Below, piece after piece: positions 12,425-37,453 of a stretch of 37,470 bases of DNA. The notes beneath the pieces are model-generated. The model was given only the letters and a program-made list of their open reading frames with translations. It searched no databases and was not told where the DNA came from. How positions within the stretch are numbered: the first letter of the stretch is position 1; every line of letters begins with the position of its first letter. This stretch comes from a virus. A program made the position numbers and the translations under genes. The stretch covers positions 1-37,470 of the IMG/VR virus record IMGVR_UViG_3300033571_008007; one strand, 5' to 3'.

Positions 12425-13431
12425 TAGCTTTTATTCTCATTAGTCCAAGATGATGAGTTTTTATTCTCATTAGTCCAAGATGATACTGACTTTGCAATAT
12501 TATTCCACTTCTTTTTAATCTCGACTAATACTTCTATAAGTCCAGTACTTTCGGCAATTGTGAATAAAAAAGTTCTGGTTGCTGTAAAGGCTTCCACTAA
12601 GCCAAGGGAATCAGTGATATTAAAAGCTATGCCTTTAAGAAAAGAGGTAGCCTCTACTAAACCTAGAGTTTCAGCCAGAGTGAATAGACGAGTTCTTATG
12701 TTTGTTATTGTTTCAGATAGAGTAAGGACTTCTGTGATTGTGAAATTTATTGAAAACGGATATTGCTTGCCGTTCCCTGAATTGTATAATTCATTGACTT
12801 CTGTGGAAGATAAAGCACGAGACCAGATACCGACTTCATCTAACATAGCGTCAAGTTTGTTTCCAATTAAAGCACTAGGTGCTTCTATACCCAAACCAAA
12901 ATATCTTGAAGTTGAAGTTAGAGTAGCTCCATCGTCAATTGTTTTAGTTGGAGATAAAACAGAACCATTGGCATATAATAAAAGAGTAGTTCCGTCCCAA
13001 GTTGCTGTAAAGTAAGTCCAAGTATTTTGAGCAAATATATTAGTGTTTGAACGATAATCTTTTCTAAAATTTCCTGCTGAATCAAAGATAATAAATCTAG
13101 CCTCATCAGTTGCTGTACCCTCACACTTGACTATGTTTGCACTACCAGAGCTAGGAGCATAAGCAAATAACTCATTATTTGAGAAATCAGCAACTGCTGG
13201 CTTAACCCACATAGATATAGTGAAAGCATTTGTAAAGAGAGAAACTCCAGCAGAAGTTGTTAAACACTTAGTTGTAGCAGAAGCAAAAGTCGCCCCATTG
13301 TTTATCTTACCTCCTGTGTAAGTTAAGGTATTATTATTCGTTAGGGTAACACTATTACCAGAACTATCAGAGGCATTACCACTGCTTTCATCTAATTTCC
13401 AGTATGAAACTAAGTTATCTGTTAATGCCAT
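12424..13431 (-). CDS. LamG/concanavalin-like virion protein with repeated C-terminal tail
   Basis: A 335-aa protein. Residues 1-215 form a LamG-like jelly roll (SYWKLDE at the start, ISMWVKP and DEVGIWSRALSS motifs). Residues about 225-300 are about four degenerate repeats of the type F-x-I-T/A-E-S/T-x-G-L-V-E. The tail ends with a duplicated SSWTNENK. Such proteins decorate capsids or fibres and bind glycans. The 30-bp repeat at the 3' end shows recent slippage or duplication. Confidence 0.65.
   Translation of the reverse strand: MALTDNLVSYWKLDESSGNASDSSGNSVTLTNNNTLTYTGGKINNGATFASATTKCLTTSAGVSLFTNAFTISMWVKPAVADFSNNELFAYAPSSGSANIVKCEGTATDEARFIIFDSAGNFRKDYRSNTNIFAQNTWTYFTATWDGTTLLLYANGSVLSPTKTIDDGATLTSTSRYFGLGIEAPSALIGNKLDAMLDEVGIWSRALSSTEVNELYNSGNGKQYPFSINFTITEVLTLSETITNIRTRLFTLAETLGLVEATSFLKGIAFNITDSLGLVEAFTATRTFLFTIAESTGLIEVLVEIKKKWNNIAKSVSSWTNENKNSSSWTNENKS
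12429..12484. repeat. 30-bp-period tandem duplication
   Basis: A 26-base sequence occurs at 12429-12454 and again at 12459-12484 without mismatch. In frame it duplicates the SSWTNENK motif at the C-terminus of the LamG-like protein. Identical copies imply a recent event or conversion. Confidence 0.85.
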
Positions 13432-24713: not shown

Positions 24714-25044
24714 TCAAATATTTATCAATCGCTGATTCTATCTTCTCTCTATCTTCCACAACGATTGGGGCTACTGCCTGTCCGTGCTTACGGTCAAGGA
24801 TGTCTTTATAAAAACGATAGTCGCCAGCACGGGCTAACTTAATAGCGTTTGATAGCATCTCAACTTCAAGCGTGTCCGGCTCTTTACCATTCAATTTAGC
24901 CAAGTGAATTAAGCCTTCTCTGTATAGAGTAGCGTAATTCTTCTGACCCACTGGGCGACCGTTAGGGTTAGCCGTCTGTCCGGGCTTACAAGGTATAAGA
25001 TTTGCTATTCGCTTATCTCTGTTTTTGTCTTTGTTTTTTGCCAT
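24682..25044 (-). CDS. Terminase small subunit-like protein (DUF5681 motif)
   Basis: A 120-aa basic N-terminal part containing KPGQTANPNGRPVGQKN (about 20-36), the hallmark of DUF5681 proteins often located before terL, followed by helices. Overlapping genes on both sides (40 nt with the ParB-methyltransferase, 32 nt with terL) imply tight coupling. A DNA-recognition role in packaging is likely but not proven. Confidence 0.55.
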   Translation of the reverse strand: MAKNKDKNRDKRIANLIPCKPGQTANPNGRPVGQKNYATLYREGLIHLAKLNGKEPDTLEVEMLSNAIKLARAGDYRFYKDILDRKHGQAVAPIVVEDREKIESAIDKYLNDNTGNNKEK

Positions 25045-26180
25045 ATAATTTCTTTACCATTTAACTTAATATTCTCATTACCTGTGTAGTCAACATAGCG
25101 TTGGACAATCACGTCTACGTATTTTGGGTCTAGTTCCATTCCGTAACATATACGACCTGTTTTTTCAGAGGCTATGAGAGTAGAGCCAGAGCCGAGGAAG
25201 TCATCAATTACTATTCCGCCTGGGTTAGAGCTAATTTTAAGTTCATTAACTATCAATTCAACAGGTTTCATTGTTGGATGTGGTGTTGAATTTTCTCTAC
25301 CAAACTCTAGACTCTTTGAATATGAAACTCCTTGAACTGCATTGTTCCAAATAGCATTTTTTCTTATAGTTAAGAGATATTCTACATCTGGTCTATGTTG
25401 TTCTCCTAAAGGAAGAGCATTTGGTTTCTTCCAAAAAAGGATATTAAAAGCATATTTACATTCTCTAGCCCAATTAAGATAATCTGGAACTAAATCTTTA
25501 TTACAAAATATATAAGCATTCATTCCTCTTTCAAAGTATAAAGGAAGTGTATTTAACCATTCTGCTGGTTCAAAACTTATAATATCTTTTATACTCTCAC
25601 CTATTTTAGCGGCACTCTTTCCTACCCATTGATTAGAACCACCCTCTGCCTCCATCCTATAAGGCGGGTCAGTAAACACCATATCTGCCTTCTTCCCATC
25701 CATAAGACTTGAAACTGCCTCTATTTGCGTGGAATCCCCACATAATACTTTGTGACGACCTAACTCATACAAATCCCCTAATTTAGAGCGACTAGGCACA
25801 TTCTCTGGTATTACATCATCGGCTTCATCAGCCTCTATAAGTAAATCAGCATCAAATCCGGTTAGCCCCACTAGATCATCATCCTCCAATGATTTCAGTT
25901 CATCAATAACGAGCGCCATATCCCATTCACTTTCGTTCAACTTATTATCAGCTAGACGATAAGCATCAGCTTTCTTTTTACTTATATCCAATACTTTTAC
26001 CTCTGGTTCTATACCAAGTAACTTACACGCTTCCCATCTTCCGTGTCCTACTATTATCACACCTTGTTTATCTACAACGATAGGTTGATTCATACCAAAC
26101 TCTTTAATAGAGTTAGCTACTTGTTGTATCTGTTTCTTTGAATGCTTTTTAGCATTTTTTGGATAAGGTTTTATTTCCAT
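25005..26180 (-). CDS. ParB-like domain fused to N6/N4 DNA methyltransferase
   Basis: A 391-aa protein. Residues 1-95 are a ParB/Srx-like nuclease domain with the VIIVGHGRWEAC signature at 41-52. A linker follows, then a methyltransferase with DPPY at 171-174 and AdoMet motif DFLGSGSTL at about 339-347 (beta class order). Such fusions are common in phages beside terminase genes. It is the second gene of the leftward arm; the ATG at 26180 lies immediately after a tRNA-like leader. It may mark DNA against restriction or couple methylation to packaging. Confidence 0.8.
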   Translation of the reverse strand: MEIKPYPKNAKKHSKKQIQQVANSIKEFGMNQPIVVDKQGVIIVGHGRWEACKLLGIEPEVKVLDISKKKADAYRLADNKLNESEWDMALVIDELKSLEDDDLVGLTGFDADLLIEADEADDVIPENVPSRSKLGDLYELGRHKVLCGDSTQIEAVSSLMDGKKADMVFTDPPYRMEAEGGSNQWVGKSAAKIGESIKDIISFEPAEWLNTLPLYFERGMNAYIFCNKDLVPDYLNWARECKYAFNILFWKKPNALPLGEQHRPDVEYLLTIRKNAIWNNAVQGVSYSKSLEFGRENSTPHPTMKPVELIVNELKISSNPGGIVIDDFLGSGSTLIASEKTGRICYGMELDPKYVDVIVQRYVDYTGNENIKLNGKEIIWQKTKTKTEISE

Positions 26181-26482: not shown

Positions 26483-26520
26483 TATTGACAAGTATGTAGT
26501 AAATATTTGTACATACACAT

Positions 26521-26872
26521 CTGCCATACCTCAGAGGTATGGCAGGAGGTATGGCAGGAGGTATGGCAGACTTTTTATGGCTACACATAAGGGTTTTATC
26601 CCTCCTGCCATACCTACCATACCTTTTTTATATATAAAGAGTTAGTATAGAAATATAAAATATAAAATACCACCGCGGGGGGTATATATAGGAGTTTGGT
26701 ATGGCAGGTATGGCAGATAAGTATGTATTCTTCACTTATACGTTGCTATATAAGGCTTATTTACCTGCCACACCCCCTCTGCCATACCCCCTTATTTTAC
26801 CCATTTTTGCCATACCTATACTCAAAAAATGACCATTTTTTACCTTTTAGGTATGGCAGAAAGTTATCCACA
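26521..26872. other. Replication origin with iterons, AT-rich zone and DnaA box
   Basis: No gene is supported here. Ten exact copies of GGTATGGCA occur: plus strand at 26536, 26548, 26560, 26698, 26707 and 26850, and inverted at 26522, 26606, 26780 and 26808. One-mismatch copies lie at 26615 and 26766. Copies at 26536-26568 are 12 bp apart; those at 26522 and 26536 form an 11-bp-arm palindrome. A stretch at 26624-26668 is nearly all A/T (unwinding region), and a perfect DnaA box lies at 26864-26872. The helicase-primase gene follows at once. Confidence 0.8.
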
Positions 26873-26911
26873 GGGGTACTATTTGCATTAATTTTTCATG
26901 AAGAGTATAAT
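26864..26911 (+). promoter_or_regulatory. Early promoter 1 with upstream DnaA box
   Basis: TTATCCACA (26864-26872), 10 bp, TTGCAT (26883-26888), 17 bp, TATAAT (26906-26911). The predicted start, 26918, is the A of an ATG. It would drive the leader peptide and the replication genes. Two other early promoters share the box and spacing. Confidence 0.8.
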
Positions 26912-26917
26912 GTATGT

Positions 26918-27043
26918 ATGAAACAATTTAGCATTACAAGTTTTAATAATCACCAGCAGTCCTCCCGGAATATTTGCGTAGTAATGCACGTAGTTTCAGT
27001 TCCTGGAGGACTTTTGGTTGTTAATATATCGCAAAATATATGA
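26918..27043 (+). CDS. Leader peptide upstream of helicase-primase
   Basis: A 41-aa ORF starting MKQFSITSF at the predicted transcription start (leaderless). The stop overlaps the primase start (ATGA at 27040-27043). The frame runs open upstream through the iterons, but that part precedes the promoter and is not credible. It spans a long stem-loop (26958-27012), so its translation would open or close that structure. Either a regulatory leader peptide or a small early protein. Confidence 0.5.
   Translation: MKQFSITSFNNHQQSSRNICVVMHVVSVPGGLLVVNISQNI
26958..27012 (+). promoter_or_regulatory. Candidate attenuator hairpin in primase leader
   Basis: AGTCCTCC (26958-26965) pairs perfectly with GGAGGACT (27005-27012). 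After one mismatch GGAA (26967-26970) pairs with TTCC (27000-27003). The 29-nt loop lies within the leader peptide frame. The sequence after it is TTTGGTTGTT, so it could act as an intrinsic terminator. It also hides the only GGAGG upstream of the primase start. Confidence 0.5.
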
Positions 27044-29187
27044 ATAAACTTATAGAAAAATTTGGAGAGGAAAAGAGATGGGTAACTTATAAAATAGTTT
27101 TAAAAGATGGTAAGAAAACTAAAGTACCTTTTACAAAAAATGGAAAAGCTGCGGCTTCTACCAATCCAGATCATTGGTCTACTGTAAAAGAATTAAGAAA
27201 TCTTCCTTTAGGAATTATTTTTACACCGGGACAAACACTCCTTGGAATTGATATTGATCACTGTTTAGAAGGACAAAAAATTGTTCATCCAGAAAAAGAA
27301 GTAATAGAAAAACTTTTAGCTTCCACTAATACTTATACAGAAATTTCACCATCAGGTACTGGTCTACATTTATTTTTAGAAATAACAGAATCATTTAAAT
27401 TAGAAGCGAGTCGTACACACAGTTTGCCGTATGAATTTTATACATCCGGTCGCTACTTCACTGTGACTCAAAATATATATGGTGAAGAAAAAGAAGTAAG
27501 AACTGTTACCCCAGAAGAGGCTATATCTATTCTTAAAATTACTGGATACCCTTGGAAGACTGAAGAAAAGAAAGAAATTAAACCACAAATATCTGCTCCG
27601 ATTGAAATAGATGATCAAAAACTTTTAAAGAAGATGTTTAAATCAAAGAATGGTACGGCCATTCAGTCATTGTATAATGGCGATATTTCAAAATACAATA
27701 ATGATGACTCTTCTGCTGACATGGCGTTATGCACGTTTTTATCTTTTTGGACTGCTTGTAACTTTAATCAAATGGAAAGGATTTGGTTATCATCACCATT
27801 AGGAAGCCGTAGCAAAACCCAGACAAAGGCTGATTATCGTAAAAGAACTATTGATAAGGCGATTGCTGGCTGTAATGAAGTGTATGAAACTCCTAAAATG
27901 AAACAAGAAAAGGTTAATAAAGAATTAGACCTTGAACTTTTATTTACTCTAAACAAAGACGGTGACAAAGTATTTATTCAAAATACCGAGAATATGTGTC
28001 GCATCCTTCGTAAACACCCGGACTTTCAAGGTAGACTTCACTATGATGTGTTTAAAAATACTTTAGAAATATTTAAAAATAATTGTTGGACCGGGATAGA
28101 AGATAATGATTCTGTAAACTATCAGACTAAAATTCAAATACTATTTTCTTGTTTTGCTAAAGTGGGTAAAGATATGGTTTATGATGCTATGATCAAAGTA
28201 GCCAAAGAAAACACTGTAGACTCAGCCAGTGATTATATCCGTTCCTTGCATTGGGATGGTACAGATCGTCTATCATCTTGGTTAACAAAGACTTATGGAA
28301 CACCGAATGATAAATATCACCAAGCTGTTGGTAGTAATTGGCTAAAAGGCCTTGTGAAGCGTATAACCGAGCCAGGATGTAAGTTTGACTATGTTTTAGT
28401 ACTTGAGGGTGAACAAGGCACCAAGAAGTCTACATCTCTTTATATCCTTGGTGGCAACTGGCACGTTGAAACGGCTATGTCTACTGACTCCAAAGACTTC
28501 TTTATGCAGTTCGCAGGCAAAGCTATCGTGGAGTTCTCAGAGGGTGAAACCTTAAGCCGTACTGAAGTTAAGCGTATGAAAGCTATCATCACAATGCAGA
28601 CGGACAAATACCGTCCACCCTATGAGCGTTCCTCACAAGAATTCCCCAGACGTTGCGTATTTGCTATGACTACAAACCAGACTGAGTATCTAAAAGATGA
28701 GACCGGTAACAGACGTTGGCTACCAGTAACTGTGGCCCTACCAGAAGCAAATATTGAATGGTTAGCCGCTAATCGAGATCAATTGTTTGCTGAAGCCTAT
28801 CACCGGGTAGCAAATCTTAAGGAGACTACTTATGATTTTCCTAAAGAAGAAATGCTTGAAGCTCAAGAAAAAAGACGTATTCAAGATGCTAACACCGATC
28901 TTGTGACTGATTGGTACTTTAATACTTTAACTAACTCTCAAAGAGAAGAAGGTATTACTATCCAGCAGGTTTACAAAGTATTGAATGGTAATTGGTCCGG
29001 TAAACCATTAACTAAGTATGAGGAAATGACTATTTCCACTGTGCTAAAGAAATCACTAAAATTATCGAATGAGCGTGTCTCCGTTGGTGGTGCTAGATGT
29101 ACTAAGTGGTTTGATCGTACTGGCCGAACGATTGAACAGGAGGTATTAGAAGACGGTAATGCTGTATTAAGCTCAAACAGATGGTAA
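27040..29187 (+). CDS. Prim-pol / VirE-type helicase-primase
   Basis: A 715-aa replication protein. The N-terminus (about 1-170) is a bifunctional primase-polymerase domain with catalytic DID (71-73) and SPSGTGLHLFL (103-113). The C-terminal half is a VirE/SF3-like ATPase with Walker A GEQGTKKST (457-465), Walker B-like AIVEFSEG (about 495-502) and TTNQ...DETGNRRW (about 548-563). It lies beside the iteron origin and is probably the initiator/helicase that acts there. Its start overlaps the leader peptide stop. Confidence 0.85.
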   Translation: MNKLIEKFGEEKRWVTYKIVLKDGKKTKVPFTKNGKAAASTNPDHWSTVKELRNLPLGIIFTPGQTLLGIDIDHCLEGQKIVHPEKEVIEKLLASTNTYTEISPSGTGLHLFLEITESFKLEASRTHSLPYEFYTSGRYFTVTQNIYGEEKEVRTVTPEEAISILKITGYPWKTEEKKEIKPQISAPIEIDDQKLLKKMFKSKNGTAIQSLYNGDISKYNNDDSSADMALCTFLSFWTACNFNQMERIWLSSPLGSRSKTQTKADYRKRTIDKAIAGCNEVYETPKMKQEKVNKELDLELLFTLNKDGDKVFIQNTENMCRILRKHPDFQGRLHYDVFKNTLEIFKNNCWTGIEDNDSVNYQTKIQILFSCFAKVGKDMVYDAMIKVAKENTVDSASDYIRSLHWDGTDRLSSWLTKTYGTPNDKYHQAVGSNWLKGLVKRITEPGCKFDYVLVLEGEQGTKKSTSLYILGGNWHVETAMSTDSKDFFMQFAGKAIVEFSEGETLSRTEVKRMKAIITMQTDKYRPPYERSSQEFPRRCVFAMTTNQTEYLKDETGNRRWLPVTVALPEANIEWLAANRDQLFAEAYHRVANLKETTYDFPKEEMLEAQEKRRIQDANTDLVTDWYFNTLTNSQREEGITIQQVYKVLNGNWSGKPLTKYEEMTISTVLKKSLKLSNERVSVGGARCTKWFDRTGRTIEQEVLEDGNAVLSSNRW

Positions 29188-30086
29188 ATTTTATAGATAA
29201 AATAGAAGGTAAATATAGGGGACCTGTAATAAATATAATTCTAGATGGTATAAGAAGTTTTGATGGTAAATGTAATTCGTCTGAAGTAATTGAGTGGGTA
29301 CGAGAAGATTTAAAAAGGCGTAAAAAATATGGACTACCTAATTACCTCAAAATAGTTAAACAAAACTTAGATGAAGAAGAAATGCATATATTTATTAATG
29401 AATATATTGCCTATCAAAATCTTCCTTACGAACAAAGACAACGAGTAAAACAAATTAAAATAAATTCCAAACAAATGCAAAAAAAACTAATTAAAGACAT
29501 TTTTAATAATCAACGACCTCTATCATGGTCTGCTATTTCGTCATGGAATTATTCTAAAGAGGACTGGGCAAAAAAATATATAGATGGTGAAGTTCCAAAA
29601 TCTAGTAAGGAAATGGACTGGGGTAAAAAAATTGGTAAACTCTTAGAGACTGATCCTACCTATTTACCACAAGTCCCACGACATTCTAAAATGGAACATA
29701 AGTTCAGTGTCAATTTATCTGGTATCCCCCTTGTAGGTTATGCGGATTCTTTTTGTGATAAGAGCCATAATAAGTTACTCGAATTTAAGACTGGTAAAAA
29801 AGCCTGGGATCAAAAACGTACAGATGAACATGGTCAGATCACAATGTACTGTTTAATGAATTATATTACTAATAAAATCAAACCAGAGGATATGGATATT
29901 GCTCTTGTCTGGCTCCCTACACAAGATAACGGAGACTTCTCCATCTCCTTTGTCGAACCGATTGAAGACCACATTCAAATCTTTAAAACTAAACGCACCA
30001 TGCAAGACATCCTTCTCTTCGCCTCTGAAATAAAAAAGATTTATAAACAAATGGAGGAATATGTAAAAAATTATGAAAAAAATTAA
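29181..30086 (+). CDS. PD-(D/E)XK nuclease, RecB/Cas4-like
   Basis: A 301-aa protein. Catalytic-type residues are in order: GYAD (D189), EFK (E201, K203) and Q219 in HGQITMY. SWSAISSW at about 115-122 is a typical beginning of PF12705-type exonucleases. The N-terminal ~100 residues are a separate helical part. It overlaps the primase by 7 nt and the next gene by 14 nt. Probably a recombination/replication exonuclease working with the downstream ssDNA-binding-like protein. Confidence 0.75.
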   Translation: MVNFIDKIEGKYRGPVINIILDGIRSFDGKCNSSEVIEWVREDLKRRKKYGLPNYLKIVKQNLDEEEMHIFINEYIAYQNLPYEQRQRVKQIKINSKQMQKKLIKDIFNNQRPLSWSAISSWNYSKEDWAKKYIDGEVPKSSKEMDWGKKIGKLLETDPTYLPQVPRHSKMEHKFSVNLSGIPLVGYADSFCDKSHNKLLEFKTGKKAWDQKRTDEHGQITMYCLMNYITNKIKPEDMDIALVWLPTQDNGDFSISFVEPIEDHIQIFKTKRTMQDILLFASEIKKIYKQMEEYVKNYEKN

Positions 30087-31125
30087 AGTATTATCATTAT
30101 TTGACGGTATATCAGTGGCCCAGCAAGCCCTAAAAGAATTAGGGTATGATGTGGAGTATTACGCTTCCGAGATAGATAAGTATGCTAGTCAGATTACACA
30201 GAAGAATCATCCGAAGACTATTCAAGTTGGTAGCGTAGTTGGTTTGCAACCATTATTCAAGCCAGATCTCCTCATCGGTGGCTCACCTTGCCAAGACCTA
30301 TCAATCGCCAAGAAGAATCGTCAAGGCTTAGATGGTGCAAGGTCGGGTCTATTCTGGGAGTATGTTCGTATCTTGAAAGAAGTAAAGCCGAAATACTTCG
30401 TGCTTGAAAATGTAAACTCTATGCCAAAGGAAGCAAAGGCAATTATCACCGAAGCTCTTGGTGTTGAACCAATAATGATAAATGCCTCCCTTGTTTCAGC
30501 GCAGAACCGAAAGAGATTGTTTTGGACAAATATACCGAATGTTACCTTGCCAAAAGACAGGGGGATATTGTTGAAAGATATTTTGGAGGAGAATGTTGAT
30601 GAGAAATATAAGGTAAATATTTCTCCGAAGTATGGACTAAAAGGATTGTGCGAAGCAAACGATAAAGCTAAAGCGGTTACTGCTTCTTGTTATAAAGGTT
30701 ACGGTAATGATGGAGTTTCAATTATTCGTGTAGGGAAAATCGGCAAAGGTGGTCAAGGTGATAGAATCTACTCTCCAGAAGGCAAGTCGGTCGGTCTATC
30801 AGCTCTCGGTGGTGGTCGTGGGGCAAAGACGGGGTTGTATTGTATTGGAAACATCTATGCTAAAAAAGGACAAGCTGGAAATGTTTATGATGTGAATGGA
30901 AAATCTGCCACTATTAGTTGTGCTGGTCGCGGTGGTGCTGATAACGCTGGTCTTTATCAAGCTGATTCCATAATCCGCAAACTTACCCCAATAGAATGTG
31001 AACGCCTGCAATCTCTCCCAGATAATTACACTGAAGGAATAAGCAACAGTCAGAGATATAAGTGTTTAGGCAATGCGTTTAATAAGGAGGTGGTCAAACA
31101 TATTTTGAAAAAAATGGCTAACTAG
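30073..31125 (+). CDS. C5-cytosine DNA methyltransferase
   Basis: A 350-aa protein with all main motifs: motif I (LSLFDGISVAQQAL, 7-20), catalytic PCQ (72-74), ENV (112-114) and motif VIII QNRKR (144-148), then a variable Gly-rich recognition region with repeated GKS-type segments (about 215-300). C-terminal motifs IX/X are present (RKLTPIECERLQSLPD and KCLGNAFNKEVV). Complete and probably active. A GGAGG lies upstream within the preceding frame. Likely anti-restriction. Confidence 0.9.
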   Translation: MKKIKVLSLFDGISVAQQALKELGYDVEYYASEIDKYASQITQKNHPKTIQVGSVVGLQPLFKPDLLIGGSPCQDLSIAKKNRQGLDGARSGLFWEYVRILKEVKPKYFVLENVNSMPKEAKAIITEALGVEPIMINASLVSAQNRKRLFWTNIPNVTLPKDRGILLKDILEENVDEKYKVNISPKYGLKGLCEANDKAKAVTASCYKGYGNDGVSIIRVGKIGKGGQGDRIYSPEGKSVGLSALGGGRGAKTGLYCIGNIYAKKGQAGNVYDVNGKSATISCAGRGGADNAGLYQADSIIRKLTPIECERLQSLPDNYTEGISNSQRYKCLGNAFNKEVVKHILKKMAN

Positions 31126-31135
31126 AGCCGTAGAG

Positions 31136-31181
31136 TTATCCACACCCCATCCCTTGCAATATTATGTGTATGTATTATTAT
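31136..31181 (+). promoter_or_regulatory. Early promoter 2 with upstream DnaA box
   Basis: TTATCCACA (31136-31144), 9 bp, TTGCAA (31154-31159), 16 bp, TATTAT (31176-31181). Start near 31188, 39 nt before the next ATG. It lies in the gap after the C5 methyltransferase. The -10 is followed by GTATGTATG as at promoter 1. Confidence 0.75.
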
Positions 31182-31226
31182 GTATGTATGGTCGTATAAA
31201 TTATTAAGATAAATTAAAAGATAAAA

Positions 31227-31424
31227 ATGAAAAAAGAAACAAAAACATTTATTGGTGGGTCAGTCTTAGGTGCTATTATTGGAGGATTTATTGTCGGCTT
31301 CTGTGTCTTCGCTATTATGGGGACACTTTTTATTAACTATTCTCTAAATCAAGACAAGGTTTGTAATGAGATGAAACTAAAATATGAAAAAAATACTATT
31401 AAAAATTTGGTTGGCAATTTATAA
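31227..31424 (+). CDS. Small membrane protein with GG-rich TM segment
   Basis: A 65-aa protein. One strong membrane span (about 9-37) is rich in Gly (SVLGAIIGGFIVG), followed by a short charged tail with an extra Cys. It begins with MKKETKTF. It is the first gene after early promoter 2. The start is A-rich with no Shine-Dalgarno. Function unknown. Confidence 0.5.
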   Translation: MKKETKTFIGGSVLGAIIGGFIVGFCVFAIMGTLFINYSLNQDKVCNEMKLKYEKNTIKNLVGNL

Positions 31425-31450
31425 TTATGCTAAACACATAAATTAAAATT

Positions 31451-32038
31451 ATGGAAATCCAAAAAGAATTAGTCCCAATAGAAAAAACAGTTGCCCTTGT
31501 CTCTAAGAAGGTAGCAGACTTAGTGATTAAAGATGCCGAGTCTATGGCCACTGCTTCGGAGTATCGCTCACAGTTAAAAGAATATGCTAAAGCGATCAAA
31601 GAAAAGAAGGGTGAAGTCCTTGACCCACTCAATGAGACATTAAAGAAATTTAAGAGCTGGTTCAAACCAGTGGAAGACAAGTGTGAAGCTAATCTTACTA
31701 TCATTGATAGTAAAATGGTCTCCTATCAGACAGCCAAGATTGCCAAAGAAAAAGCCGAGGAAGCTAAAATAGTTGCTAAAATGGAGTCTGGTAAAATTGA
31801 TATAGATAAAGCGGTAGATAAACTAGCTAAGATTGACCGGGTTGATAAAAAGGTAGAGACTGACTCCGGCTCAACATCATTTATCACTACACAGTGTTTT
31901 GAAGTGATGGATGTCACTATGTTGCCAGTAGAATATATATTACCGAATGAAGTTGCTATTCGTTCCGCCATGAAAGAAGGCAAGCAATTACCTGGAGTCC
32001 GTTACTATACAGAACAACGCCCCAGAAACGCCCGATAG
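31451..32038 (+). CDS. Coiled-coil protein linked to recombination genes
   Basis: A 195-aa protein, almost entirely helical with heptads over about 5-130 and a short C-terminal globular piece ending PGVRYYTEQRP. This combination (long helical body plus AMKEGKQLPGVR) is a pattern in phage proteins located beside ssDNA-binding and annealing genes (Gp157/DUF1351-like). It precedes the ssDNA-binding-like gene. A recombination-accessory role is inferred from context. Confidence 0.5.
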   Translation: MEIQKELVPIEKTVALVSKKVADLVIKDAESMATASEYRSQLKEYAKAIKEKKGEVLDPLNETLKKFKSWFKPVEDKCEANLTIIDSKMVSYQTAKIAKEKAEEAKIVAKMESGKIDIDKAVDKLAKIDRVDKKVETDSGSTSFITTQCFEVMDVTMLPVEYILPNEVAIRSAMKEGKQLPGVRYYTEQRPRNAR

Positions 32039-32095
32039 TGTCTAAAAACTCTAGGTCGGTAGAGATTAGAGAATTATAAGATAATAAATAAAATA

Positions 32096-32902
32096 ATGAC
32101 AAAAGAAATACAAAAAGTAATTAGCGCAGAGGAGTTAGCAATGTTAAAGGATAGTTACCCTGTTGAGCAAGGTCTTAGCCGAATTATGATACCAAGACTT
32201 GAATTTGTTTCTCAGGACCAAACTGAAGGTAAGGGTAAGTCTATGAAAGTTACTGTAGAAGCTGGAACATTCTTTACCAGCAATCAATCAGACGAAGTAG
32301 ACGAAGACGGTAAGAAAGTCTGGGAGAAGGAAGAGATTGGTAAGGAAATTGATGTGATTGTACTTTATGAGCGTAAGCAATTAAAGTTCTATGATGGTGA
32401 AGGATATGTATCTTCACCTATCTATGACACTGATGACCAAGTAATCCCATTATTCAAAGATAAGGCCGAAATTGATCGTGGTACACCAGCGGAATTAAAA
32501 TCTCGCTCACAGTATCAGGGTAAGTCGGCTAAGGGTAAAGATATTAGTAAATTGGAAGAGAATAAGGTGCTTTATGTTTTGTATAAAGATGAATTGTACC
32601 AGTTCTCTATCCGAGGAACTTCTATGTATGCCTTCCGTGATTATAAGAAAACTGTTACCCCAAATGCTGTAGTTACCACCCTAAACTCCGTACCAAAGGA
32701 GAACGGTAGCACCGCATGGAATCAGATAACTTATACCGAAGACAGGACTATCAATGGTACTGAGTTGCCATTAGTTTTGGAGTCTATTGCTAAGATAAAA
32801 GTTGCAGTAGAAATGGAGAAGACTTATTATAATGAGAAAAGCCAAGCCGACAAAGATTATGATGCTTTGCCAGGCAAGGTAGAAGCCCCAAAGAACTTCT
32901 AA
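32096..32902 (+). CDS. Putative ssDNA-binding-type protein
   Basis: A 268-aa protein. An N-terminal helix (ISAEELAMLK) is followed by beta-rich sequence (about 30-230), without a nuclease motif, and an unstructured charged C-terminus. The position (between the coiled-coil recombination accessory and the helicase) suits a phage ssDNA-binding protein, which also often ends in such a tail, although here the tail is mixed rather than purely acidic. It lies upstream of a structured RNA region (32917-33033). Family not confirmed. Confidence 0.4.
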   Translation: MTKEIQKVISAEELAMLKDSYPVEQGLSRIMIPRLEFVSQDQTEGKGKSMKVTVEAGTFFTSNQSDEVDEDGKKVWEKEEIGKEIDVIVLYERKQLKFYDGEGYVSSPIYDTDDQVIPLFKDKAEIDRGTPAELKSRSQYQGKSAKGKDISKLEENKVLYVLYKDELYQFSIRGTSMYAFRDYKKTVTPNAVVTTLNSVPKENGSTAWNQITYTEDRTINGTELPLVLESIAKIKVAVEMEKTYYNEKSQADKDYDALPGKVEAPKNF

Positions 32903-32916
32903 TTGTATATCTATAG

Positions 32917-33033
32917 TGGGCAGAACAGGCTGGCATTTTAAGAGGTAGTGATATGGTTGCTTTCGGTCTAAGGAGCCGTTTCACAGCCACCACCTAAGTA
33001 AGTTTAATAGCCTCAGCCGGCCTATCCTGCCCA
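32917..33033 (+). ncRNA. Structured intergenic RNA upstream of SF2 helicase
   Basis: TGGGCAG (32917-32923) pairs with CTGCCCA (33027-33033). After a 3x3 internal loop AGGCTGGC (32927-32934) pairs with GCCGGCCT (33016-33023, one G-U). Inner paired segments include AGGTAGTG against CACCACCT and GTTG against CAGC. It ends nine bases before the helicase ATG. There is no good ORF in it. It could be a regulatory leader or a small RNA. Confidence 0.5.
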
Positions 33034-33042
33034 TTATTAGTT

Positions 33043-34164
33043 ATGGAATTAAAACCTTTACCACATCAACAAAGAATCATTGACTTAAACCCTAAGAAGA
33101 TACTTTTGGACTGGTCACCAAGAGTTGGTAAGACATTACCAGCGTGCTATTGGATCGATAATCCACAACAGGGTAACAATACCTTTATTATTTGTAAGAA
33201 GAGTAATAAGAAAGAATGGCAAAGTATGGGTACTAGAGCTACTGTGTTAACTAAAGAAGAATTTAAAAAACACGCTTCAAAGATAGTTAATCCTACTGCT
33301 ATTGTAATTGACGAAATCCATAATTTTGGTGCCTCCTTATTCGTTAAAGGTCGTTCTGAACTAGCTACAACTCTCTATAACCTAGTTAAAGCCTATCCTA
33401 ACTGCCATTTGATGGGGTTATCGGGTTCGATGGTTAGAAACTCGCCTTGGTCATTCCACAGTCTTCTGTGTTATATAGGAGTGTATATTGACTGGAAGCA
33501 ATGGAGAACAGAGTTTTTTGAACTTACTAAAACTCATTTTCAGCCCTGGCCGATCTGGATGCCTAAGAAAAACTGGCGTGAAGGGATATATAAACTACGC
33601 AAAAAATATTGTGATCAGGTATCATTAAGTGATGTAGTTGAGTATCTTCCACCGGTCAAGCCAACAGTGGTAAAGATTAAGTCAGATAAATATGTACCAC
33701 CAGTCGGAGAGATAGTTACCTGGACTAATGAACATCAGCACGAGCAGAGAAATAAATATAAGTGGTTAATAGAGTTAGAATATAAAAAGATTATTATAGT
33801 TTGCCGATACACTGAACAGATAAACGACTTAGCAAACAAACTTAAAGAATATAAAGATGTATTCATCCTTAACGGTCAGACAAAAGATCAAGGTAACACC
33901 ATTAAGAAAGCCCAAGAGTCTGAAGAGTGTTACTTCCTAGTTAATTCAAAGATGGGTGAATCGTGGGATGGTTGGATGTTTGACTGTATGGTCTTTGCCT
34001 CAATGGATGACGCCTTTGTCGCAAATTTCCAGATGCATGAGAGACAGAGAAACATTAAGAATTTAAAAGACATTGAGATCTTCTATCTGATCGGAGGACA
34101 TTGGGATCAGAAGGTATATAATAGCTTTTTATTAGGTCAAGATTTTAACCCACATGCAAAATAA
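33043..34164 (+). CDS. SF2 helicase
   Basis: A 373-aa compact helicase: Walker A SPRVGKT (25-31), DEIH box (90-93), motif III LSGS (126-129) and a motif VI-like QMHERQR near 342. It is shorter than cellular SNF2-type enzymes. It probably remodels DNA for phage replication or recombination. The stop overlaps the next start (TAATG). Confidence 0.8.
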   Translation: MELKPLPHQQRIIDLNPKKILLDWSPRVGKTLPACYWIDNPQQGNNTFIICKKSNKKEWQSMGTRATVLTKEEFKKHASKIVNPTAIVIDEIHNFGASLFVKGRSELATTLYNLVKAYPNCHLMGLSGSMVRNSPWSFHSLLCYIGVYIDWKQWRTEFFELTKTHFQPWPIWMPKKNWREGIYKLRKKYCDQVSLSDVVEYLPPVKPTVVKIKSDKYVPPVGEIVTWTNEHQHEQRNKYKWLIELEYKKIIIVCRYTEQINDLANKLKEYKDVFILNGQTKDQGNTIKKAQESEECYFLVNSKMGESWDGWMFDCMVFASMDDAFVANFQMHERQRNIKNLKDIEIFYLIGGHWDQKVYNSFLLGQDFNPHAK

Positions 34165-34556
34165 TGCTCCCATCACTTCCACAACAAAATAAACAGAAGG
34201 AATCTAAGTCTGGTATTAAGTTTAGAACTTGGCTTAAGGCTAATCCACGTTATACCTCGTCAATTGAGATGAAGGACTCTCGATCAAAGACTTCTATTAG
34301 ACTTTCAGAGATTACTGATGAACAGATAAACTACGCCTTAGCTATTCAAGAGAGTAAGTCCGGGGTCTTGATTCGCACAACCGGTGTAGCTGGACTACCA
34401 GACTATGTCTATCTACGCAATGAACCAGCTTACTTCTGTATTAAATATCCTAAAGGATTTTGTCTTATAAATGTAAATCAGATTGTTAACGAGAAGAAGA
34501 AAGCTAAGTCGTTATCTTATTCTAGGGCTAAAGATATAGCTATAATTACCTTTTGA
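34164..34556 (+). CDS. Putative PD-(D/E)XK-like resolvase
   Basis: A 130-aa basic protein. Candidate catalytic pieces are IEMKD near 36-40 and GLPDYVYL followed by AYFCIKYPKGF (about 77-100), a pattern seen in Holliday-junction-resolvase-like phage proteins in which the usual D...ExK is altered. It follows the helicase. The call is tentative; it could be a small DNA-binding protein. Confidence 0.4.
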   Translation: MLPSLPQQNKQKESKSGIKFRTWLKANPRYTSSIEMKDSRSKTSIRLSEITDEQINYALAIQESKSGVLIRTTGVAGLPDYVYLRNEPAYFCIKYPKGFCLINVNQIVNEKKKAKSLSYSRAKDIAIITF

Positions 34557-34557
34557 G

Positions 34558-34605
34558 TTATCCACATCCCCCCTGTTTGCAATCATTTATAAGTAAGTAT
34601 ATAAT
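34558..34605 (+). promoter_or_regulatory. Early promoter 3 with upstream DnaA box
   Basis: TTATCCACA (34558-34566), 10 bp, TTGCAA (34577-34582), 17 bp, TATAAT (34600-34605). Start near 34612, next to the ATG at 34613. It has the same layout as the promoters at 26864 and 31136. Confidence 0.8.
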
Positions 34606-34612
34606 TATGAGT

Positions 34613-34774
34613 ATGAAAGAATTAAAATGTAGCAGATGTGGAGATTTATTCGTTCAAGGTTATGCAGGTAACGATGAAGTTTGTGATCAGTGTCTTGAGG
34701 AGATGGCGGTCGACATCCCCGATGAGCCAGATATGAGTGGAGCGGATAAACCGGGAGAGGAGGGTAATAGATAA
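34613..34774 (+). CDS. Small zinc-ribbon-like protein
   Basis: A 53-aa protein with C6-x2-C9 and C24-x2-C27, a typical zinc-ribbon pair, then an acidic tail. The frame is open upstream from a TTG (34553), but the promoter starts transcription at 34612, so the ATG at 34613 (or 34607) is the likely start. Its N-terminus (MKELK) resembles that of the gene at 1253. Function unknown. Confidence 0.55.
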   Translation: MKELKCSRCGDLFVQGYAGNDEVCDQCLEEMAVDIPDEPDMSGADKPGEEGNR

Positions 34775-36712: not shown

Positions 36713-37453
36713 ATGAAATATGTAGGTTCAAAAAATAGACACTCCAAAGAGATTTTACAGGCCATTACTACTGAATGTGGCGGTATGTCTGGTGTTGGTA
36801 AATATCAAAATTGGATTGAGCCGTTTGTTGGTGGTGCAAATATGATAGATAAAGTTTATGGGTTTATTAAATATGGTAGTGATGTAAATCCTTTCTTAAT
36901 ATCAATGTTTCAGGCCGTTCAAAAAGGTTGGAAACCCCCAGAAGATATAGACGAGGAAACATATAATTTATGTAAAGAAAACTCCAAGTTATGTTGTGGT
37001 GCTACATTAGAAGAAAAGGCACTAATTGGTTTTGTTGGTATTGGATGTTCTTATTCTGGCAAGTGGTTTGGTGGGTATGCTAGGGGAAATGCAAATAACG
37101 GACAACCAAGAAATTACTGCAAAGAAAGCAGGGATAATCTTTTGAAACAGACAAAACACATAAAAGATGTAAAATTTATTTGTTCCGACTACCAAGCTCT
37201 AACAATACCAATTACACCATCAATAATTTATTGCGACCCTCCGTATCAAGATACAACAAAATACCACGACTCAATACGACATAAAGAGTTCTGGAATTGG
37301 TGCAATAATTGGGTAGAACGTGGAAATAAAGTATTTGTTAGTGAATACAACGCCCCAGAAGGCTGGAGATGTATTTGGGAAAAGGTTGTCAATAGTTCGC
37401 TCACGAAAGAAACTGGAAGCAAAAAGGCGACTGAAAAGTTATTTACTAAGTAG
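36713..37453 (+). CDS. dam: Dam-type (D12 class) N6-adenine DNA methyltransferase
   Basis: A 246-aa protein. MKYVGSK at the N-terminus, EPFVGGANM (37-44, AdoMet motif) and catalytic DPPY (175-178) in alpha/D12 order. It is slightly short but motif-complete, with the recognition domain between the two. Stop TAG lies at 37451-37453, just before the terminal repeat. Target unknown (GATC is common in this class). Likely protects phage DNA from host restriction. Confidence 0.85.
   Translation: MKYVGSKNRHSKEILQAITTECGGMSGVGKYQNWIEPFVGGANMIDKVYGFIKYGSDVNPFLISMFQAVQKGWKPPEDIDEETYNLCKENSKLCCGATLEEKALIGFVGIGCSYSGKWFGGYARGNANNGQPRNYCKESRDNLLKQTKHIKDVKFICSDYQALTIPITPSIIYCDPPYQDTTKYHDSIRHKEFWNWCNNWVERGNKVFVSEYNAPEGWRCIWEKVVNSSLTKETGSKKATEKLFTK

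Follow-up and report, generated by a model that had tools for sequence, protein, structure and literature searches.

A perfect DnaA box at a fixed distance before three early phage promoters: possible activation by the host replication initiator

Three perfect copies of the DnaA box TTATCCACA were found on the plus strand, in the early region of a 37,470-base viral contig (the whole stretch of DNA analysed here, referred to as the window), at 26864, 31136 and 34558, and each of them stands at nearly the same distance before a sigma70-type promoter. It is quite probable that host DnaA, bound at a box placed one turn of the helix before weak early promoters, activates the first genes of the phage. 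The three boxes match exactly the 9-mer of the high-affinity R1/R4 type and are regarded as candidate DnaA sites; no fourth perfect copy was present on either strand of the window.

Box 1 (26864-26872) ends 10 bp before promoter P1 (26883-26911), which has the -35 hexamer TTGCAT at 26883 and, after a spacer of 17 bp, the -10 hexamer TATAAT at 26906-26911. Similarly, box 2 (31136-31144) ends 9 bp before P2 (31154-31181; TTGCAA at 31154, spacer of 16 bp, TATTAT at 31176-31181), and box 3 (34558-34566) ends 10 bp before P3 (34577-34605; TTGCAA at 34577, spacer of 17 bp, TATAAT at 34600-34605), all on the plus strand. Measured from the box centres, transcription is expected to begin about 48-50 bp downstream, at about 26918 for P1 and about 34612 for P3. 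A previous sequence-only reading had noticed three perfect boxes and no further copy, each 9-10 bp before a TTGCAA/T -35 hexamer and centred about 50 bp before the start, and all of these statements agree with the present measurements and with the count on both strands. The comparison with shuffled sequences that it had proposed was less decisive: dinucleotide shuffles contained 0.61 copies of TTATCCACA on average and at least three copies in 2 of 100 cases, so the number of boxes is only mildly unusual and by itself weak evidence. What stands out, and is strong evidence, is the geometry of box and promoter as opposed to the count. A promoter in such a register follows no more than 0.76% of the intergenic positions of the window's early region, and the product from this background gives a chance of about 4e-7 for three of three boxes. 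When the box was relaxed to TTATNCACA, two extra TTATTCACA copies appeared in the window, at 12559 (minus strand) and 15668 (plus strand), neither of which adjoins a comparable promoter.

The late genes (terminase, tail-fibre-like protein) are on the minus strand and the replication genes on the plus strand from 26.9 kb. Boxes 1, 2 and 3 head a primase-helicase operon, an exonuclease-helicase-resolvase operon and a small-gene operon, respectively, and these would be early operons judging from their gene content (primase-helicase, nuclease, helicase, resolvase and methyltransferases). By direct reading, an ORF of 41 aa (26918-27043) begins at the expected P1 start and overlaps by 4 bp the first large gene after P1, a primase-helicase with Prim-Pol, NrS-1 HBD and VapE-like domains (27040-29187). 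The same operon holds an exonuclease-like gene (29181-30086), homologues of which precede a second boxed promoter in relatives, and a C5-cytosine DNA methyltransferase gene lies at 30073-31125. The P2 operon (31227-34556) comprises a 65-aa ORF and exonuclease-like, unknown, helicase-like and Holliday-junction-resolvase-like genes. At the P3 start, a Cys-rich ORF of 53 aa (34613-34774) was likewise read directly; it looks zinc-ribbon-like by eye and had no Pfam match. Since an ATG stands at the expected P1 start and the ATG at 34613 adjoins that of P3, the messages from P1 and P3 are probably leaderless. It was also observed that this 37-kb phage has four DNA methyltransferase genes (213-1250, 25005-26180, 30073-31125 and 36713-37453), one of which is fused to a ParB-like domain.

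Relatives were gathered from viral contigs by the primase-helicase, of which thirteen were used (39-66% identity), and by the terminase; the GC content of the window and these relatives ranges from 33 to 59%. The phage collection contained no near-identical phages, and the protein relatives with known hosts were distant ones only. A box was considered to be in register when it was followed by a TTG -35 at a gap of 8-11 bp and a -10 matching at least 5/6. Of the 27 perfect boxes counted across the window plus 14 representative loci, 11 were in register as against 0.2% of all positions, while one-mismatch boxes reached 2 of 87 and control words 0-1; the register in the window and its relatives is not due to chance. 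A boxed promoter precedes the primase gene in the window, L001, L002, L419, L420, L422 and L423, and in a looser form in L418. The gap in L002 is about one turn longer, and the primase promoters of L419, L420, L422 and L423 have poor -35 hexamers (TATTCA in L419 and L420). In L001, L417, L419, L420 and L422 another boxed promoter directly follows the nuclease gene; its counterpart in the window is the one at 31136, behind the nuclease-methyltransferase pair. L001, L002, L417 and L418 also have boxes at gaps of 1, 18-20 or 30 bp. Most relatives keep the spacing, as the sequence-only reading had proposed to check, and the window is free of the scattered boxes which that reading had named as an argument against itself. 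However, a perfect box is absent from the 15.7 kb of L416, whose primase is, together with that of L001, the closest to the primase of the window. No perfect box was found in the sequence examined of L421 and L424 either, and in L421 TTATCCACT abuts a -35-like hexamer.

The same arrangement was sought in 2.9 million viral contigs with the pattern TTATCCACA-N0-30-TTGACA-N17-TATAAT. For TTGACA promoters, 38 of 90 non-redundant sites had gaps of 8-11 bp (P 5e-12), with no site at gaps 7, 12 and 13 and a minor rise at 17-18, and for TTGCAA promoters the gap was 8-10 bp in 12 of 17 (P 7e-8). The viral loci in register formed 42 DNA clusters. A scrambled word gave only 9 matches in total, and the reversed box, about as common as the box itself, had no peak at 8-11 (11/88) and a broad excess at gaps 5-8. 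Moreover, boxes in which position 5 is A, G or T (TTATACACA/GCACA/TCACA, i.e., TTATDCACA) showed no peak at 8-11 among the matches listed (7/79) and a small excess there at gaps 6-7. The excesses at 6-7 and 5-8 could possibly represent a second geometry in other hosts. Because neither reversed nor relaxed boxes have the 8-11 peak and the scrambled word gave so few matches, the signal appears to need the exact high-affinity box in one orientation and at one helical position. A box held before the core promoter at a constant distance set by the helix is what is expected of DnaA-activated promoters. Boxes of the TTATNCACA type in the same register, which might also be expected of such promoters without strictly defining them, showed no such peak among the matches listed. 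A plain AT-rich UP element was considered and rejected, the signal being carried by the exact 9-mer and not by AT-richness. In-register boxes were associated with weak core promoters such as the TTGCAA/T promoters of the window: together with a box, TTGCAA was enriched 12-fold over TTGACA (P 9e-7), in a comparison for which all loci were fetched by the box-promoter scans, so that the no-box background is box-selected and not a random sample. As a separate observation, viral contigs L032 (at about 2227) and L112 each have a promoter with four DnaA boxes, some flanking it and some lying within it, also in the -35/-10 spacer; the arrangement resembles a multi-state switch.

Bacterial chromosomes gave a more restricted picture. 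In a GTDB-wide scan for the box-promoter module, the overall gap distribution was flat among the matches listed, partly because of repeated rpmH-like loci, and a peak was seen among them in the Patescibacteria subset only, which was then re-tested on drawn genomes. With looser -35 and -10 hexamers, 30 of 76 matches in 379 Patescibacteria genomes fell at gaps 7-10 (P 6e-9), 14 of these at gap 9. No gap peak was found in the phylum of Intestinibacter (199 genomes, 18 matches) or in Chloroflexota (151 genomes, 6 matches). The modules in Patescibacteria, several of which are at clearly chromosomal loci, precede genes for three LexA-like S24 proteins, hrcA, ksgA, two Phd antitoxins, a PadR regulator and a transposase. 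In two of them, L265 (at about 1500) and L266 (at about 1500, minus strand), the palindrome GTGAACG..CGTTCAC lies between -35 and -10 before the LexA-like S24 genes and is a candidate LexA operator beside the DnaA box.

Judging from these sequence comparisons, Patescibacteria would be the likeliest source of the box architecture, and they are a plausible host phylum of the phage. The terminase search of Patescibacteria genomes gave two weak partial matches. The primase profile had no match in the 379 genomes, and a search of 334 Patescibacteria genomes gave one prim-pol element, which is a different element and has the prim-pol domain alone in common. Locus L517, in the Patescibacteria-class genome G858, combines a prim-pol domain of the window type with a different C-terminal ATPase-like part, and the gene probably belongs to an integrated element. 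A broader proposal, put forward tentatively and with somewhat more doubt than confidence, is that DnaA in Patescibacteria serves as a general promoter-proximal activator from a box 7-10 bp before the -35, over lexA-like repressors, hrcA and antitoxins, and that many phages of the phylum subject their early operons to this switch, whereby takeover would be gated by the host replication initiator.

The mechanism proposed for the phage starts from three early operons, each of which would be driven by a weak sigma70-type promoter with a TTGCAA/T -35 and a good -10; a single high-affinity DnaA box, always in the same orientation, ends 9-10 bp before each -35. Host DnaA would occupy this solitary site, whose centre near -50 keeps it on a constant face of the helix, and would recruit or stabilise RNA polymerase. 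The early genes could then fire once the DNA enters a cell with active DnaA, and a phage-made activator would not be needed. We infer DnaA as the reader of the boxes, activation as the direction of control and a link to the growth or replication state of the host; the coupling of infection to the cell cycle is a consequence of the model and not a result. Taken together, the upstream position, the fixed helix face and the weak -35 hexamers that accompany the box suggest that a bound protein contacts RNA polymerase and thereby activates transcription. DnaA is the natural candidate for this protein, since it stimulates transcription at ori-lambda and stabilises RNA polymerase at nrdAB (PMC8203912; PMC3985674). 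The sequence-only reading had left the direction between activator and repressor, and the position of the box upstream of the -35 together with the weak -35 hexamers favours activation. Repression, in which DnaA would block or trap RNA polymerase until it is titrated by the replicating phage or until the state of the cell changes, is unlikely, although fixed spacing also fits a repressor in contact with the polymerase and DnaA is known to repress dnaA and, when abundant and ATP-bound, nrdAB (PMC8203912). The boxes are not over the core promoter, and the association of in-register boxes with weak -35 hexamers is the reverse of what a repressor needs.

Because relaxed boxes have no 8-11 peak among the matches listed, the reader would be stricter than E. 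coli DnaA, and the strict need for C at position 5 may leave room for a reader other than DnaA. A different DNA-binding protein of the host or the phage, in which case the likeness of TTATCCACA to a DnaA box would be convergent, would fit this strictness. However, TTATCCACA is the perfect DnaA consensus and is frequent around dnaA in Patescibacteria (17 copies in 68 kb), and the module recurs in many unrelated contigs, as the 42 DNA clusters indicate; such a reader is rather improbable. Domain IV of DnaA in Patescibacteria retains the GG(R/K)DHTTV signature.

Box 1 may have two jobs, at an origin and at a promoter, since it adjoins the probable origin of the phage. An array of about ten iterons, with copies of GGTATGGCA / TGCCATACC on both strands, occupies 26516-26859 and its last iteron ends 4 bp before box 1. 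Together with the GC-skew minimum, at which it lies, this array marks a probable replication origin, and it corresponds to iteron-type origins, in which direct repeats stand beside a replication gene and a DnaA box. Plasmid origins such as those of P1, pSC101 and RK2 likewise consist of iterons plus a DnaA box; boxes 2 and 3 of the window differ in that they are 4-8 kb from the iterons and without iterons of their own, and the box belongs to the promoters. Unrelated iteron words are found at the same place, before the primase gene, in L003, L419/L420 and L422/L423. That the boxes serve replication, with box 1 in the iteron origin, the others titrating DnaA or acting as secondary origins and the register a by-product, is suggested by these arrays before the primase and next to box 1 but is very improbable, as boxes 2 and 3 share the same register and a constant distance to a -35 would be unnecessary for titration. 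The earlier claim that the box belongs to promoters and not only to the origin is supported by the register in relatives, by its recurrence in dozens of viral contigs unrelated to the window and by its presence in Patescibacteria chromosomes, with the qualification that box 1 is also beside the probable origin.

Class I and class II activator promoters of the CRP-like type place one activator site before a weak -35, at a spacing fixed by the helix. The promoters of the window share this arrangement; they differ in that the presumed activator is the replication initiator and in that the box is centred near -50, intermediate between the positions typical of class I and of class II. DnaA is already known as a transcription factor, including at a phage promoter, lambda pR. 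According to PMC8203912, DnaA activates ori-lambda transcription with a potential contact to the beta subunit of RNA polymerase, and the stimulation of pR and the transcriptional activation of ori-lambda are attributed to Szalewska-Palasz et al. (1998) there and in PMC3985674. As in the window, a phage early/replication promoter is under positive control by host DnaA (putative here) with an iteron origin adjoining. However, the lambda sites only resemble the DnaA box and are downstream of promoter pO (PMC3985674), whereas the window has perfect boxes upstream of the -35 in a fixed register at three promoters. The nrdAB genes of E. coli, which DnaA activates at low levels or as DnaA-ADP and represses as DnaA-ATP, also have high-affinity DnaA boxes in the promoter region, where DnaA stabilises the complex of RNA polymerase and promoter (PMC8203912). 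Unlike the window promoters, with a single box each, phage genes and no sign of a repressing phase, nrdAB are host genes with several boxes and a repressing second phase.

The literature search found no description of such a fixed upstream box geometry in phages or Patescibacteria. In the papers searched there was likewise no account of one perfect box standing at a fixed distance before several early promoters of a genome, of its spread over a phage family and numerous unrelated viral contigs, and of a matching rule in the chromosomes of Patescibacteria. In many well-studied phages, the first transcripts come from strong consensus promoters or depend on the phage's own regulators. The spacing rule is explicit and can be tested by single-base changes or inserts of half a helical turn. 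If the proposed activation is true, it would offer a simple and testable way into the gene control of phages and ultra-small bacteria that are difficult to culture, and a widespread class of phages, with weak promoters and a single site for the host initiator, would join the timing of infection to the replication capacity of the host.
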